DNA of 36,509 nucleotides from Gammaproteobacteria bacterium (GCA_021772955.1 JAJFKZ010000107.1:1-36509), one strand, 5' to 3'; shown: positions 9,760 through 36,509, counted from the first letter of the stretch. Numbers and translations are program-made. The notes: generated by a model not told the origin, from the sequence alone.

Positions 9760-10042
9760 TTAAGGAACCTCTGATTTATAATGCATGGGCGCGACGGCGC
9801 CTCTGCGGGATGATCCGGTGTGGCTGCGGCGAGTGCTGTTTGCTCATCGCAAATGAGCGAGCCGAAACCCGCCGGAGCGCCCGCAGAGGCCCGTCCCTTC
9901 AGGGTTTCGACGGAAAAGCCGCATCTCACGCAGGGCTCCCTGCGGCCGTAGCGACGGCTACTGTCACTACGGTCGCACCACGCAATCTGCGGCTTTTCCG
10001 GACAAAACGCGCTCCATGCATAATAAATCAGAGGTTCCTTAA
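9760..10042. mobile_element. MITE-like non-autonomous element, family B, 283 bp including flanking TTAA
   Basis: TTAAGGAACCTCTGATTTATAATGCATGG at the left versus reverse complement of right end TTAAGGAACCTCTGATTTATTATGCATGG (28/29); nested internal inverted repeats. Confidence 0.8.
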
Positions 10043-28119: not shown

Positions 28120-29592
28120 ATGACATCAATCAAGCTAGCCCGTTCCGATTTGTTCAAAAACCAGGCCTATGTGAATGGCCGCTGGCAAAATGCGCCCGCA
28201 GCAGCAACCTTTGCGGTGCATGATCCTGCCACTGGCGAGTTGCTGGCTGAGGTCGCCGATCTGGATGCAGCAGCCACCACTCAGGCGGTTGCTGCCGCGC
28301 GCCAGGCATTTGCGCACTGGAGCAGCATCACGGCCAAGCAGCGCAGTGAGTATTTGCTGGCCTGGTATCAGCTGATCATGCAGCACAGCGATGACCTGGC
28401 CATGCTGATCACGCGCGAACAGGGCAAACCGCTGGCCGAGGCCAAAGGCGAAATAAGCTATGCTGCATCGTTCGTGCAATGGTTTGCAGAGGAGGCCAAG
28501 CGTGCCTATGGCGAGTTGATCCCGTCGCCATGGCCAGGCAGCCGTATACAGGTGCTGCGCCAGCCGATAGGCGTGGTCGCATCGATTACACCGTGGAACT
28601 TTCCGGCGGCGATGATCACGCGCAAGGCCACCCCGGCACTGGCGGCCGGTTGCCCGGTGGTGATCAAGCCTTCAGAAGAAACCCCACTGACGGCATTGGC
28701 GCTGGCCGTGCTGGCGGAACAGGCGGGTCTGCCCGCCGGGGTGTTCAATATCGTTACCAGCAATCAGGCGGCGGCAGTGGGTGAGGTACTGTCTACCCAT
28801 CCTGATGTCGCCATGCTGTCGTTTACCGGCTCCACTGCAGTGGGCAAGTTGCTGATGAAGCAGTGCGCCTCGACCGTCAAAAAGAGCGCCATGGAGTTGG
28901 GTGGCAACGCGCCGTTCATCGTATTTGATGACGCCGATCTGGACGCCGCCGTGGATGGCTTGATGCAAAGCAAGTTCCGCAACACCGGCCAGACCTGCGT
29001 CTGCGCCAATCGCATTTTTGTGCAGGATGCAGTCTACGATAATTTTGCCAACAAACTGCAAGCACGCGTCAGTGAGCTCAAGCATGGGCAGGGCACCGCA
29101 GACAATGTCACGCTGGGGCCTTTGATCAATCGCGGCGGGCTGGACAAGGTCAGCCGCCTGGTGGATGCCGCTGTGCAAGCCGGCGCCGAGTGCCGCTGGC
29201 GCGCGGATATCAATGGCCTGGATCAGCAGCGCTATTACCCGGCCACGCTACTGACCAACGTGCAAACCGGCATGGACATTACCAAAGAGGAGATATTCGG
29301 CCCGGTCGCCGCCTTGATCCGGTTCAGCAATGAGCAAGAAGTTATCCGCGCCGCCAACGACACCCGCGCCGGTCTGGCCGCGTATTTCTATGCCCGTGAT
29401 ATCGGTCGCATCTGGCGTGTTCAGGAGGCACTCGAATATGGCATTGTTGGCGTTAATGCCGGCCTGTTTTCCACCGAGGTGGCACCGTTTGGCGGAGTCA
29501 AGGAATCCGGACACGGCCGCGAAGGTTCGCACCACGGCATGGAAGAGTTCCTGGAAATCAAATACGTGCTGCATGCGGGGCTGGGTGAATAA
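28120..29592 (+). CDS. gabD: NAD(P)-dependent succinate-semialdehyde dehydrogenase-like aldehyde dehydrogenase
   Basis: ITPWNFPAAMITRKATPALAAGCPVVIKPSEETPLTAL, FTGSTAVGKLLM, MELGGNAPFIVFDDADLD, NTGQTCVCANRIFVQ. Confidence 0.9.
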   Translation: MTSIKLARSDLFKNQAYVNGRWQNAPAAATFAVHDPATGELLAEVADLDAAATTQAVAAARQAFAHWSSITAKQRSEYLLAWYQLIMQHSDDLAMLITREQGKPLAEAKGEISYAASFVQWFAEEAKRAYGELIPSPWPGSRIQVLRQPIGVVASITPWNFPAAMITRKATPALAAGCPVVIKPSEETPLTALALAVLAEQAGLPAGVFNIVTSNQAAAVGEVLSTHPDVAMLSFTGSTAVGKLLMKQCASTVKKSAMELGGNAPFIVFDDADLDAAVDGLMQSKFRNTGQTCVCANRIFVQDAVYDNFANKLQARVSELKHGQGTADNVTLGPLINRGGLDKVSRLVDAAVQAGAECRWRADINGLDQQRYYPATLLTNVQTGMDITKEEIFGPVAALIRFSNEQEVIRAANDTRAGLAAYFYARDIGRIWRVQEALEYGIVGVNAGLFSTEVAPFGGVKESGHGREGSHHGMEEFLEIKYVLHAGLGE

Positions 29593-29851: not shown

Positions 29852-29955
29852 AAATTTAGGGGATGTCCGGTCTTGCGACCGGACAGTGACCCCACGGCAC
29901 ATCAAATGAATGACGGCCTTATTGTAGCAACGGCTCTCACCCCGATTGGCTACAT
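29852..29955 (-). ncRNA. tracrRNA of the type II-C CRISPR-Cas9 locus
   Basis: Minus strand ATGTAGCCAATCGGGGTGAGAGCCGTTGCTACAATAAGGCCGTC...GATGTGCCG...; anti-repeat has 20 continuous bp complementary to crRNA repeat, then a bulge and a second 7-8 bp helix; downstream part resembles the N. meningitidis tracrRNA. Confidence 0.88.
29859..29893 (-). terminator. Rho-independent-like terminator hairpin of the tracrRNA
   Basis: Minus strand GGGG-TCACT-GTCCGGTC-GCAA-GACCGGAC-AT-CCCC then TAAATTT. Confidence 0.7.
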
Positions 29956-29960
29956 GGACA

Positions 29961-29989
29961 ACTATACAGGGAGTGAAGGGAAAAGTGAA
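29961..29989 (-). promoter_or_regulatory. Predicted sigma70-like promoter of the tracrRNA
   Basis: Minus strand TTCACT (29989-29984), 17-bp spacer, TATAGT (29966-29961); predicted start about 29954, at the 5' edge of the anti-repeat. Confidence 0.6.
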
Positions 29990-32900
29990 CAGTTTTGACA
30001 AAAAAACAACTCGCCATTACGTACTCGGCCTGGATATCGGAATTGCATCGATTGGCTGGGCGGCACTTAACAGTAATGACGGTAATGTTGTAGATGGCAT
30101 TATCGATCTCGGTGTTCGAATCTTTGAACGTGGCGAAACGGCCAAGAAAGGTGAGTCACTTAATCTTGCCAGAAGGCTTGCCAGAGGGACTAGAAGGCGC
30201 TTGCGAAGGCGTGCACACCGCATGTTGAGATTGAAAAGATTGCTATTACGCGAAGGATTGGTAAAACAAGAACATCTGGATTCAAGTGGCAATATCAAGT
30301 TCAGCGCAGATCCATGGCGTTTGAGGTCCGAAGGGCTTGACAGACTATTGACACCATTTGAGTGGGCGGGGGTGATCTATCACATGATCAAACACCGCGG
30401 CTATCTTTCGACACGAAAAGCCGACAATAACAGCGCGGATAATGATACCGGCAAGGTATTGGTTGCGCTCAAGGCCATGAACGAGCGTCTGGAAGCGGGT
30501 GGTTGGCGCACAATTGGCGAAATGGCTTATATGGATAATGAAGAGTTTGGCCATGCCATCCGCAACAAACAGGGTGATTACAGGCACTGCTTTGATCGTA
30601 AGATGCTGAGAAGTGAGTTACAGCTTCTGGCTGACAAGCAGCATGCATTTGGCAATCCGCACACAGATGATGCTTTTAGAGAGCAGATCATTACTCTCTT
30701 AATGCAGCAACGTCCTGCCTTATCGGGCAAGAATCTGCTCAAAATGCTCGGTAAATGTACCTTCGAGAAGCACGAGTATCGAGCGCCAAGAGCGAGCTAT
30801 AGTGCGGAAAGATTTGTCTGGCTGTCCAAACTCAATAACCTTCGTCTACTCAACAGTGATCGCAGCCGTCGCTCACTGACCGCAGCAGAAAGACAGGTAA
30901 TCATGGATTTTCCTTACGAGCGTGTCGTTGTCAAGTATGCACAAGTACGCAGAGCCTTAGACCTGCCAGACGATATCCTGTTTGTGGGTCTGCGTTATCG
31001 CGATGACGAGAACGCAGAAAACGAAAAGCTTATCGAACTGAAAGGTTGGCACAAAATGAAAAAAGCACTCTCGGATGCCGGTCTGACAACTGAATGGCAT
31101 GGAATTGCCAGCAGAACCGAAGAGCTTGACGAATTGGCCTACGCATTGAGCGTATTCAAAGACGATAAAGAGATTAGTACCCATTTGCGGGCAAAAGGGT
31201 TTGATGATGTTGTGATTCAAGCCTTGCTGTCTGTCAACTTCAGCAAATTTTCTCACCTATCGTTGCTTGCGCTGCGCAAGCTGATTCCACACCTGGAAGC
31301 AGGTATGCGCTACGACGAGGCGTGTACTGCAGCGGGCTATGATCACAGTTTGCCTATCAATATTGATAAATCTGATCTATTGCCGCCAATCAATGCTGAT
31401 GATGTGCGTAATCCGGTAGTGATGCGTTCACTCTCGCAGGCGCGCAAGGTGATTAATGCCATCATCCGTGAATATGGTCAGCCATTGCGCGTGCATATTG
31501 AATTGGCAAGAGATTTGAGCAAACCAAAGATCGAGCGAAATCGCATAGAGCGTGAACAGAAAAAGTGGCGCGATCACAAAGAAGGCCTGGTCAAGGAATA
31601 CATTGAGAATCTAGGTGCAGAGCCAAGTGGTAAGGACTTGCTGAAATACCGACTTTACAAAGAACAGAACGGCAAGTGTGCTTATTCGCTGCAATCTCTT
31701 GAGCTAGATAGGCTGACAGAAGCCGGTTATGCAGATATCGATCATATTTTGCCTTACAGCCGAACTTTCGATGATTCATTGAACAACAAGGTGCTGGTGC
31801 TCGGCAAAGAAAATCGCAACAAAGGCAATAAAACACCGTGGGAATACTTCGGCAGCAGCGATGAACAGCGCTGGGTGTTCTTTGAGGCCTGGGTTCGCTC
31901 GAACCCTGGGTTTAAACAGGCCAAACGCAATCGCTTATTGAAACGTTCCCTCACTGAAGAAGATCAACAGGATTTTCGCGAACGGCACCTCAATGATACG
32001 CGCTACATCGCGCGCTATCTGAAAAACTTCGTTGAACAAAATCTGCAGCTATCCGGTGATGCTCAACGCGTTCGAGTGGTTTCCGGCAGTTTGACCAGTT
32101 TTCTGCGAGCACGCTACGGCTTGATCAAAAAACGGGAAGAAAGCGACTTGCATCACGCAATGGATGCGGTGGTTGTCGCTGCAACCACCAACAGCATGAT
32201 CAAGCGCTTGTCGGACTACGCCAGATTTGATGAGCTTGATCGGGTCAAAATCACAGGTTATATCGATCCTGAAACTGGCGAAGTGCTGGATATCAGCACG
32301 CTACGGAAGCTGGAGCAGCAGTTCCCTGAACCATGGCCTAATTTCAGATACGAATTGCAGGCCAGATTGAAACCAGACCCGCAACGTGCATTGCGAGCCA
32401 TAGACGGCTGGCAGCACCGGGATATTTCCTGGATTCGGCCGATCACAGTTTCGCGCGCACCTCGACGCAGTGTTACCGGCCCTGGCCATGCAGAAATCAT
32501 TCGCTCTGCCAAACGACTTGACGAGCAGATCAGCTACACCCGCGTACCGTTGACCAAATTGACTTTGCCCATGTTAGAGACGATACATGGTCGTGAACGT
32601 GACAAACCCCTTTACGAGGCATTGAAGTCTAGGCTTTCAGAGCATGACGGCAAGGCGGACAAGGCATTTGCCGAACCGTTTTATAAACCTGCGGCGCCGG
32701 GCAAGCAAGCGCCCAGAGTCACGGCGGTCAAGATTGAGGCCATCCAGAAAAGTGGCATACCAATCCGAGACGGTGTTGCGGATAATTCATCCATGGTAAG
32801 GGTGGATGTCTATCGTAAAAACAACAAGTACTGGCTGGTGCCGGTGTATGCCTGGCAGATAGAAAAAAGCATCATACCGATGCATGCTGTCGTTGCCTAT

Positions 32901-33209
32901 AAACCGGAGCAAGAATGGGAGCCAATGGAAGACAATGCACAGTATTTATATCATTTTCAATATGATGATGTAGTCCAGATTGATACTGGAAAAGTCAAGA
33001 TATTTGGTTATTTTAATGGTATGAATCGTTCCACTGGCGCTATCAATATTGAGGTACATGATAGGAACCAATTGATTGGTAAAAAGGGATTATTCAGGGG
33101 CGTTGGTGTCAAGACCGCAAAATCGCTGCAAAAGTACCAGATTGATGTTCTGGGCAAATACTGGGTGATCAAAAAGGAGGCACCGCCATGGGCTGGCGCA
33201 GTATCATGA
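29985..33209 (+). CDS. cas9: Type II-C CRISPR-associated endonuclease Cas9 (~1074 aa from GTG at 29985)
   Basis: RuvC-I YVLGLDIGIASIGWA, Arg-rich bridge helix (RRLARGTRRRLRRRAHRMLRLKRLL), RuvC-II RVHIELARDLS, HNH YADIDHILPYSRTFDDSLNNKVLVLGKENRNKGN, RuvC-III ESDLHHAMDAVVVAA; ORF track start TTG 29946 is inside the anti-repeat. Confidence 0.97.
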   Translation: MNSFDKKTTRHYVLGLDIGIASIGWAALNSNDGNVVDGIIDLGVRIFERGETAKKGESLNLARRLARGTRRRLRRRAHRMLRLKRLLLREGLVKQEHLDSSGNIKFSADPWRLRSEGLDRLLTPFEWAGVIYHMIKHRGYLSTRKADNNSADNDTGKVLVALKAMNERLEAGGWRTIGEMAYMDNEEFGHAIRNKQGDYRHCFDRKMLRSELQLLADKQHAFGNPHTDDAFREQIITLLMQQRPALSGKNLLKMLGKCTFEKHEYRAPRASYSAERFVWLSKLNNLRLLNSDRSRRSLTAAERQVIMDFPYERVVVKYAQVRRALDLPDDILFVGLRYRDDENAENEKLIELKGWHKMKKALSDAGLTTEWHGIASRTEELDELAYALSVFKDDKEISTHLRAKGFDDVVIQALLSVNFSKFSHLSLLALRKLIPHLEAGMRYDEACTAAGYDHSLPINIDKSDLLPPINADDVRNPVVMRSLSQARKVINAIIREYGQPLRVHIELARDLSKPKIERNRIEREQKKWRDHKEGLVKEYIENLGAEPSGKDLLKYRLYKEQNGKCAYSLQSLELDRLTEAGYADIDHILPYSRTFDDSLNNKVLVLGKENRNKGNKTPWEYFGSSDEQRWVFFEAWVRSNPGFKQAKRNRLLKRSLTEEDQQDFRERHLNDTRYIARYLKNFVEQNLQLSGDAQRVRVVSGSLTSFLRARYGLIKKREESDLHHAMDAVVVAATTNSMIKRLSDYARFDELDRVKITGYIDPETGEVLDISTLRKLEQQFPEPWPNFRYELQARLKPDPQRALRAIDGWQHRDISWIRPITVSRAPRRSVTGPGHAEIIRSAKRLDEQISYTRVPLTKLTLPMLETIHGRERDKPLYEALKSRLSEHDGKADKAFAEPFYKPAAPGKQAPRVTAVKIEAIQKSGIPIRDGVADNSSMVRVDVYRKNNKYWLVPVYAWQIEKSIIPMHAVVAYKPEQEWEPMEDNAQYLYHFQYDDVVQIDTGKVKIFGYFNGMNRSTGAINIEVHDRNQLIGKKGLFRGVGVKTAKSLQKYQIDVLGKYWVIKKEAPPWAGAVS

Positions 33210-34114
33210 TCAGCAAGGGTGCAGATTTGCGCCTGAAGCATGGCCAGTTGAAGATTTGCCGTCAAGATAAAGCGCCCATCACGCTGCCACTGGAGGATAT
33301 TGACAGCATGGTGCTGGATACCGCACAGACAAGACTCAGCGGACAATTGTTGAGTGCCTGCATGGAGCAACAGTCTGCAGTCTACGTCTGTGATAAAAAG
33401 CATATGCCTGCTGGTGTGCTGCTGCCATTTAACAGCCATCACCGCGGCCTCAAGGTCTTGCGGCGCCAGCTGAATATGGGCAAACCATTGCGCAAACGTC
33501 TGTGGCAGCAACTGGTGCAGGCCAAGATCAACAATCAAAGCGAGTTGCTGCTTCGTCAGAAGCATGCAACACAGGCCAGAATGCTGACGAGAATGGCCAG
33601 CAAGGTACGCTCTGGCGATCCTGACAATATTGAAGCCCCGGCTGCGGCAGCCTATTTTCGTGTTTTGTTCGGCCAAGGCTTTGCTCGACGCAAGCCGGTA
33701 TGGATCAATTCTGCACTGAACTACAGTTACTGCCTGATTCGTGGTTTAATCGCAAGGTCGCTGGTGGGTTCAGGTTATCAACCAGCTTTGGGGCTGGGGC
33801 ACAACAACGAACAGAATGCATTCAATCTCGCCGATGATTTGCTGGAGCCCTGGCGTGCCATTGTCGATGGCTGGGTGATCAGATTGATGCAAGAGATGGA
33901 TGATGATGATCAGAGCACAGATTTGCTGCCCGCTCACAAGCAGCAGCTGGTAGCCAACCTGACTGCCGAAGTGATATTGCAAGGCGATTGTTATGGTGTC
34001 AGTGCTGCGGCCAATGAACAGGTCAACAGCCTGAGTCGTGCAATCAAGTGCAAAGATACCAGATTATTGTTACATCCAGAAGCTTTGCAACATGATCTGA
34101 ACGATGGGCAATGA
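33188..34114 (+). CDS. cas1: Type II CRISPR-associated integrase Cas1
   Basis: [21 protein letters not shown] start, [48 protein letters not shown]; overlaps cas9 3' end. Confidence 0.95.
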
Positions 34115-34436
34115 GACGCGACGTTTTATGCGCTTGATGGTGCTGTTTGACCTGCCGACGACATCAGCGGCATACAAGCGCGCTTATGTGCAGTTCCGTA
34201 ATTATTTGCTGAAAGATGGCTATGTCATGGTGCAATGGTCGGTATATGCGCGCATCGTCAATGGTATTGATGCCGCAGAAAAGCATCTGCAAAGGCTGCA
34301 GAAGCACTTGCCCAGAGAAGGCTCGATCCGCTGCCTGCAGATTACCGAGAAGCAATTCACGCAAATGAAGATTCTGTTGGGTGAACGCACAAATCAGGAA
34401 AAAATCGTCAACAATGAACAGTTTCTGTTGTTTTGA
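34104..34436 (+). CDS. cas2: CRISPR-associated endoribonuclease Cas2
   Basis: [43 protein letters not shown]; overlaps cas1 3' end (alternative start 34128). Confidence 0.93.
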
Positions 34437-34460
34437 ACCGGTTTTGCGCGCGGCAAAAGT

Positions 34461-34482
34461 GCTCTGGAGCAAGCTCCAGAGC
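34461..34482. terminator. Perfect hairpin between cas2 and the array, possible bidirectional terminator
   Basis: GCTCTGGAGC-AA-GCTCCAGAGC; on the minus strand followed by ACTTTTGCC. Confidence 0.45.
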
Positions 34483-34499
34483 GGCTTTGCGGGCGAGGT

Positions 34500-36509
34500 A
34501 TTGTAGCCAATCGGGGTGAGAGAGGGAGCTACAACTTCTACGTGCAATCGAACAATCGTTGGTATATTGTAGCCAATCGGGGTGAGAGAGGGAGCTACAA
34601 CATATTCGATCTGCGCTGCTGTCCTTGCTTTATTGTAGCCAATCGGGGTGAGAGAGGGAGCTACAACTCGCAATTCACAAGGAATCAGGCTGGATCGATT
34701 GTAGCCAATCGGGGTGAGAGAGGGAGCTACAACTCCCTGAACAACCTGCAGGACTCAGGGTTCATTGTAGCCAATCGGGGTGAGAGAGGGAGCTACAACG
34801 CATAGCGTTCAGGAACTCCAGCCTTAATGATTGTAGCCAATCGGGGTGAGAGAGGGAGCTACAACGCGCGGCGCGTTGGTCTGTGTGCGCCTGGTATTGT
34901 AGCCAATCGGGGTGAGAGAGGGAGCTACAACAAAGTTCGGCGCAGTCGGATTAACGGACTGATTGTAGCCAATCGGGGTGAGAGAGGGAGCTACAACAGT
35001 GGTGTCGCCGTAGTGACGCATGGCCATATTGTAGCCAATCGGGGTGAGAGAGGGAGCTACAACGGACGATGTGCTGTGCACACTGGACGCCGAATTGTAG
35101 CCAATCGGGGTGAGAGAGGGAGCTACAACGTGATATATTATGTATAAAGCACACAGAGAATTGTAGCCAATCGGGGTGAGAGAGGGAGCTACAACCAGCG
35201 CGGCCACGGTGATCAGCCTCGGCGCATTGTAGCCAATCGGGGTGAGAGAGGGAGCTACAACTTCACCTTCGGAGTAGACCGATGAAAAAAGATTGTAGCC
35301 AATCGGGGTGAGAGAGGGAGCTACAACGCGGTAGATGGTGGGGTCGCTGCCAAACGCATTGTAGCCAATCGGGGTGAGAGAGGGAGCTACAACTATGAAA
35401 GTAAATCTGGCGAAAGAGGAATTATTGTAGCCAATCGGGGTGAGAGAGGGAGCTACAACTTGTGGCATAACATCATAAACATCCGTCTGATTGTAGCCAA
35501 TCGGGGTGAGAGAGGGAGCTACAACGGTTGGTTTACGAAGGTCGCGGCAAGGTGCATTGTAGCCAATCGGGGTGAGAGAGGGAGCTACAACCGCGTGTAC
35601 AGTTATTATAACGGTGACGCGATTGTAGCCAATCGGGGTGAGAGAGGGAGCTACAACGTTAAGCGACTATAAATGGGTGTGGGATACATTGTAGCCAATC
35701 GGGGTGAGAGAGGGAGCTACAACCCTTTTATTACTGTTCAGCCCAAATAAACCATTGTAGCCAATCGGGGTGAGAGAGGGAGCTACAACCACGCCTTTGG
35801 TGCTAGTGTTGGTAAATGGATTGTAGCCAATCGGGGTGAGAGAGGGAGCTACAACCTTGCTGCCGCGCTGGTACAGCCATGCCATATTGTAGCCAATCGG
35901 GGTGAGAGAGGGAGCTACAACAGAAAGTTATGAACATTATGAACATTATTAATTGTAGCCAATCGGGGTGAGAGAGGGAGCTACAACTGTCCAGTTGATG
36001 GCACGCAGTGGCTCGCCATTGTAGCCAATCGGGGTGAGAGAGGGAGCTACAACCACCACATACGGAGTGTGCTTGCCCATCCAATTGTAGCCAATCGGGG
36101 TGAGAGAGGGAGCTACAACGCCGGTGACCCGCGCGGCCCAGCGCTGCAGATTGTAGCCAATCGGGGTGAGAGAGGGAGCTACAACATACTCGGCTTTGCT
36201 GGCAACCAGCTGCAGATTGTAGCCAATCGGGGTGAGAGAGGGAGCTACAACCTTGCGTGTTGCCGTCTGCCGCAAGCTGGTATTGTAGCCAATCGGGGTG
36301 AGAGAGGGAGCTACAACAGTGTCAACTCGCTGAGGCTGAATCGCTTGATTGTAGCCAATCGGGGTGAGAGAGGGAGCTACAACGACACCAGCGCAAGGGT
36401 TGCTGTTGGCCATATTGTAGCCAATCGGGGTGAGAGAGGGAGCTACAACTCAGAATCCGGTGCCCCTTGCATGACGTCTATTGTAGCCAATCGGGGTGAG
36501 AGAGGGAGC
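34500..36509 (-). CRISPR. Type II-C CRISPR array: 30 complete 36-bp repeats plus a partial one at the edge; 30 spacers of 30 bp
   Basis: Repeat (plus strand) ATTGTAGCCAATCGGGGTGAGAGAGGGAGCTACAAC every 66 bp from 34500; crRNA-sense repeat is GTTGTAGCTCCCTCTCTCACCCCGATTGGCTACAAT on the minus strand, inferred from tracrRNA complementarity. Confidence 0.98.

Follow-up and report, generated by a model that had tools for sequence, protein, structure and literature searches.

The window, which is the whole 36,509-nucleotide stretch analysed here, is the full length of contig C10, one of the 176 contigs that make up a 2.63-Mb draft genome of ~88.5% completeness. A CRISPR-Cas locus occupies its rightmost 6.7 kb and is established in content and order as a tracrRNA on the minus strand, followed by cas9, cas1, cas2 and a CRISPR array that extends up to the contig end. 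The cas genes are flanked on one side by the tracrRNA and a complete aldehyde-dehydrogenase-like gene (ORF call, 28120–29592, to the left of the locus), and on the other side by the array. The ORFs read further left are ordinary chromosomal genes (der, bamB, hisS, rodZ, pilW, rlmN, ndk and parC/parE), and we take the gene order from der to parC/parE to be gammaproteobacterial. An earlier sequence-only reading of this DNA described tracrRNA, cas9, cas1, cas2 and a long array within about 6.7 kb, with overlapping cas genes and no cas4 or csn2 between them. Every named component was found, with overlaps of 22 nt for cas9/cas1 and 11 nt for cas1/cas2. Neither csn2, the mark of subtype II-A in our subtype test, nor cas4, the mark of II-B, was seen among the ORFs of the locus between cas9, cas1 and cas2, and the locus is therefore assigned to subtype II-C.

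The cas9 gene (29985–33209, plus strand) begins with GTG and encodes 1074 amino acids without an internal stop. A longer cas9 starting from TTG at 29946 was rejected, as that start falls inside the antirepeat of the tracrRNA. The GTG is preferred because it is preceded by a Shine-Dalgarno-like stretch, GGAGTGAAGGG, and is kept in a congeneric genome, G079. Cas9 matches family model TIGR01865 (E = 3.8e-238, 793.6 bits, cut-off 100), and the PADLOC model agrees on Cas9. Its best solved-structure matches are PDB 6kc8, 8ja0 and 6jdq (998 bits), with Nme1Cas9 aligned over residues 7–1059; the related entry 6JDV is named as Nme1Cas9 in PMC9433092. Relative to the Nme1 sequence printed by the structure-match search, identity is 46.5% over 1072 BLAST columns, or 48% over 1040 globally aligned residues. 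In the alignment to Nme1Cas9 the nuclease residues D17, E506, D586/H587/N610 and H724/D727 map one-to-one onto D16, E504, D587/H588/N611 and H723/D726. The catalytic residues are thus established as kept, bearing out the claim that the RuvC and HNH motifs are intact. The placement of Cas9 in a small, Neisseria-like size class of about 1074 residues likewise agrees with its length and its best solved-structure match, Nme1Cas9.

The two adaptation genes follow directly. Cas1 (33188–34114, plus strand, 308 aa) matches TIGR03639 cas1_NMENI (2.6e-81, 273 bits, cut-off 120), has Cas1_II as its best PADLOC model and is a type II Cas1. It carries the conserved DLLEPWR and a second conserved motif of 18 residues. 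Cas2 (34104–34436, plus strand, 110 aa) matches TIGR01573 (4.2e-25, 87.9 bits, cut-off 24.5) and the PADLOC model Cas2_II.

The predicted tracrRNA (29857–29955, minus strand) lies antisense to the start of cas9 and is composed of an antirepeat, then a stem-loop, then a terminal hairpin. The antirepeat (29922–29954, minus strand) has 33 nt and is 88% complementary to the repeat, which establishes the complementarity of the guide RNAs. It is followed by the stem-loop GGCCGUC...GAUGUGCC and by the terminal hairpin GGGG(GUCCGGUC...GACCGGAC)CCCC. Folding of the 101-nt RNA gave −45.7 kcal/mol, compared to −29.3 ± 3.4 for shuffled sequences (z = −4.84), and the repeat:tracrRNA dimer folds as a long duplex interrupted by a single internal bulge region. 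On the minus strand at 29961–29989, a sigma-70-like TTCACT-17-TATAGT site is positioned with its −10 element ending 7 nt before the antirepeat. It is a single match where 1.3 would be expected by chance in the region, and both hexamers are unchanged in the congener G079; we infer that this site is the tracrRNA promoter. A search for a terminator-like site found none, and no canonical U-tract follows the last hairpin. The terminal hairpin (window 29857–29921) is very stable and unchanged within the genus, with no U-tract behind it. The loci of Accumulibacter (L011) and Pasteurella multocida (L109) share this tracrRNA architecture, layout and orientation but have a U-run after the last tracrRNA hairpin.

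Comparison to G079 indicates which parts of the system are under constraint. The repeat and the tracrRNA are identical in both genomes, and Cas9 is 83% identical over residues 1–501. The tracrRNA is 100% identical from ATGTAGCC to CCCCTAAA, where identity ends sharply and the flanks have diverged. Such identity with sharp ends amid diverged Cas9 codons is strong evidence for the predicted RNA boundaries and for selection on the system. Across cas9 codons 2–501, dN is 0.106 and dS 1.77 by NG86, while YN00 gave 0.104 and 1.26. The resulting dN/dS of ~0.06–0.08 shows that cas9 is under purifying selection in the genus.

The CRISPR array (34500–36509) comprises 30 complete 36-nt repeats and 30 nt of a 31st, with the crRNA strand (GTTGTAGCTCCCTCTCTCACCCCGATTGGCTACAAT) on the minus strand. 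All 30 complete repeats on C10 are identical and separate 30 distinct spacers of exactly 30 nt each, so that the repeat/spacer format is established as 36/30. Rfam CRISPR-DR34 has a minus-strand match at each complete repeat; crRNAs should therefore run towards cas2, making the cas2-proximal end the crRNA 3' end of the array. Both kinds of guide RNA, tracrRNA and crRNA, are antisense to the cas genes. The repeat ends CTACAAT, which we take to be the same as the Neisseria repeat end. By inspection only, a TG lies one base out of register for the extended −10 element TGn-TACAAT. In other II-C arrays, spacer uptake occurs at the crRNA 3' end and promoters lie within the repeats (PMC12638026).

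Contig C10 ends inside a repeat (...GGGAGC / ...GAGAGAGGGAGC), and a second contig of the same genome, C94, probably carries the end of the array. C94 (L009, positions 1–218) starts with the 3' end of an IS3-family-like transposase gene, and this IS-like end directly abuts the last 11–12 nt of the repeat (GGAGCTACAAC). Behind these come a spacer and one perfect repeat, and then a katG-like remnant. The complete repeat on C94 is identical to the 30 on C10, and all 31 therefore agree. A related transposase end is found on contig C28. The repeat ends of C10 and C94 leave an overlap of 3–5 nt, like a target-site duplication of the IS3 family. The simplest reading is that an IS3-like element was inserted in a repeat, with GGAGC (or 3–4 nt of it) as the target-site duplication. 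The C10–IS–C94 junction is absent from the assembly. Short-read assemblies are broken by perfect repeats, and this, together with the unassembled IS–C10 junction and the katG-like flank of C94, would suit a second array with the same repeat on C94 and a C10 contig that stops at unresolved repeats with no IS insertion. We consider this unlikely, however, as the IS-like end on C94 runs straight into the repeat end GGAGCTACAAC, C10 stops at the same repeat position with the 3–5-nt overlap, and the genome has no other array with this repeat beyond C10 and C94. An interruption by an IS3-like element thus remains the preferred reading. The interrupted end also qualifies the description of the locus as complete, with all components for reconstitution. 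The minimal component set is whole and the description is fair for in vitro work, but the contig end falls within a repeat and truncates the array.

Insertion sequences have also affected the congener. In G079 a multicopy IS disrupts cas9 at codon 501 (L025/L088, C19 end); the end of this IS is also present at seven further sites of the genome, most of them contig ends. Neither the 3' half of cas9 nor cas1 was found in the G079 genome, which is 98% complete. Its array lies on a different contig than cas9 and has 27 full spacers, all different from those described here. The pattern fits inactivation, with an assembly gap also possible. The state of cas9 and cas1 in G079 suggests that the system is easily lost in this genus. 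A Cas9 match of any kind was present in 11 of the 249 genomes sampled from the order. Mobile elements have also eroded a II-C locus on the Acidovorax temperans plasmid pEP1 (NZ_CP117194, L110), where Tn3 and ISL3 transposase genes stand between cas9 and cas1, both of which are short.

These losses raise the question of whether the present locus is itself a recently inactivated remnant, with intact-looking genes and an IS-split array but no further spacer acquisition or guide expression. The IS3-like end abutting a repeat on C94, the end of C10 inside a repeat and the fate of cas9 and cas1 in G079 would all be compatible with this. Against it, the three cas ORFs are intact with their catalytic residues conserved, all 31 complete repeats are identical and the tracrRNA is unchanged. 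An IS near the cas-distal end of the array would also spare 30 spacers and the cas2-proximal end. A remnant is therefore very improbable. In this uncultivated gammaproteobacterium, the locus is almost certainly a chromosomal type II-C system for adaptive immunity that belongs to the Neisseria (Nme1Cas9) clade. The type II-C assignment made in the sequence-only reading is upheld by family models, best solved-structure match (Nme1Cas9) and tracrRNA architecture alike.

We infer the working of such a system from its parts and from relatives. Cas1–Cas2 would capture spacers, and new ones would probably enter next to cas2, at the crRNA 3' end, which is the site of uptake described for other II-C arrays (PMC12638026). 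The crRNAs would be transcribed off the minus strand, perhaps starting from a −10-like element where each repeat ends, and would pair with a tracrRNA transcribed antisense to the start of cas9. The crRNA:tracrRNA duplex would then guide Cas9 to double-stranded DNA of mobile elements, where HNH and RuvC would be expected to cut beside the PAM.

The PAM itself was predicted by residue comparison. Nme1Cas9 reads N4GATT with Q981, H1024, T1027 and N1029 (PMC9433092), and the aligned residues are A971, N1014, T1017 and A1019. Three of the four are changed (Q981A, H1024N and N1029A) and only T1027 is kept, leaving the N4GATT residue set incomplete; the PAM is therefore probably other than N4GATT. 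PAMs have been tested for 29 Nme1Cas9 orthologs with 59.6–70.4% identity to Nme1Cas9. Among these, PAM position 5 can be predicted from whether H, N or D aligns with H1024; H or N corresponds to a purine there (PMC9433092). The predicted PAM would probably consist of four free bases and then a purine-led motif, with the purine at position 5. This prediction could be wrong because it extends residue inference to less than 50% identity, the present Cas9 being of the same clade as the 29 tested orthologs but more distant from Nme1Cas9.

Spacer targets were searched for at several levels. The whole array as query gave no protospacers in phage and plasmid records, and the plasmid matches listed are, as far as checked, CRISPR repeats of other arrays. 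Concatenated spacers found no protospacers in 369 genomes of the class and 43 of the family, and exact 20-nt seeds from eight spacers found none in IMG/VR. No self-targeting was seen in the source genome beyond the array itself, and the G079 spacers had no protospacer in either that genome or G079. The best non-self matches reached E ~3e-4 per genome over hundreds of genomes and were imperfect, often spanning two spacers; this is the level expected by chance from so many trials.

Among known systems, that of Nme1Cas9 (N. meningitidis, PDB 6jdq/6jdv/6kc8) shares with this locus the domain order, the nuclease residues, the tracrRNA architecture, a size of ~1080 aa, the 36/30-nt array and the repeat end CTACAAT. 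We also take the UAAGGC after the antirepeat to be common to this tracrRNA and that of Neisseria. The two systems differ in protein sequence (46–48% identity), in Q981/H1024/N1029, which are A/N/A here, and in the terminal tracrRNA hairpin, which here carries an additional GGGG/CCCC stem and lacks a U-tract. The second-best solved-structure match, PDB 8hnt (1055 aa, full length, 933 bits), is a clearly distinct ortholog. It is presumably a Haemophilus-type Cas9 of the same clade, with a host in Pasteurellaceae. The P. multocida locus (NZ_CP020346, L109) has the same cas9-cas1-cas2-array order, an antisense tracrRNA upstream of cas9 and a 66-nt repeat period, while its Cas9 is 46% identical and its repeat core differs (GCACTGCGAAATGAGAGA). 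In a scan of genome contigs, the nearest full-length relative was 43% identical, and two fragments in another genome (G232) were 47–49% identical.

No characterized ortholog near-identical to this Cas9 was found in the collections searched, which exclude UniProt and patents, where a closer ortholog may exist. The BLAST comparison suggested in the sequence-only reading as a check on novelty gave 46–48% identity to Nme1Cas9, and 83% only to the G079 fragment. Cas9 is thus a new ortholog inside a densely sampled subtype, and nothing about its working looks new. The II-C family has been sampled in cultivated orthologs (PMC7606464, PMC9433092) and metagenomes have yielded members of the subtype in their thousands (PMC10278012, PMC11043407). 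The locus contributes a further compact Cas9, together with all its guide components, and the source genome and G079 form a small example of II-C erosion by insertion sequences. The enzyme is a candidate for genome editing, and its practical value would lie in a PAM predicted, from the residues compared, to be other than N4GATT. It is conceivable, if on balance doubtful, that this compact II-C Cas9, with A/N/T/A at the four PAM-reading positions and a fully conserved tracrRNA lacking a U-tract terminator, has a PAM found in no characterized ortholog and would be useful as a genome-editing enzyme.

Elsewhere in the window, the phenylalanine hydroxylase gene was suspected of carrying a repeat insertion (ACPEFIEG peptide); this was dropped, as no such repeat occurs in the genome. 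A 283-bp element (window 9760–10042) with 29-nt terminal inverted repeats (97% complementary) separates the phenylalanine hydroxylase-like gene from an FAD oxidoreductase-like gene. The source genome has 24 matches to it, including many dispersed partial copies with 71–98% identity, and the element represents a MITE-like family.
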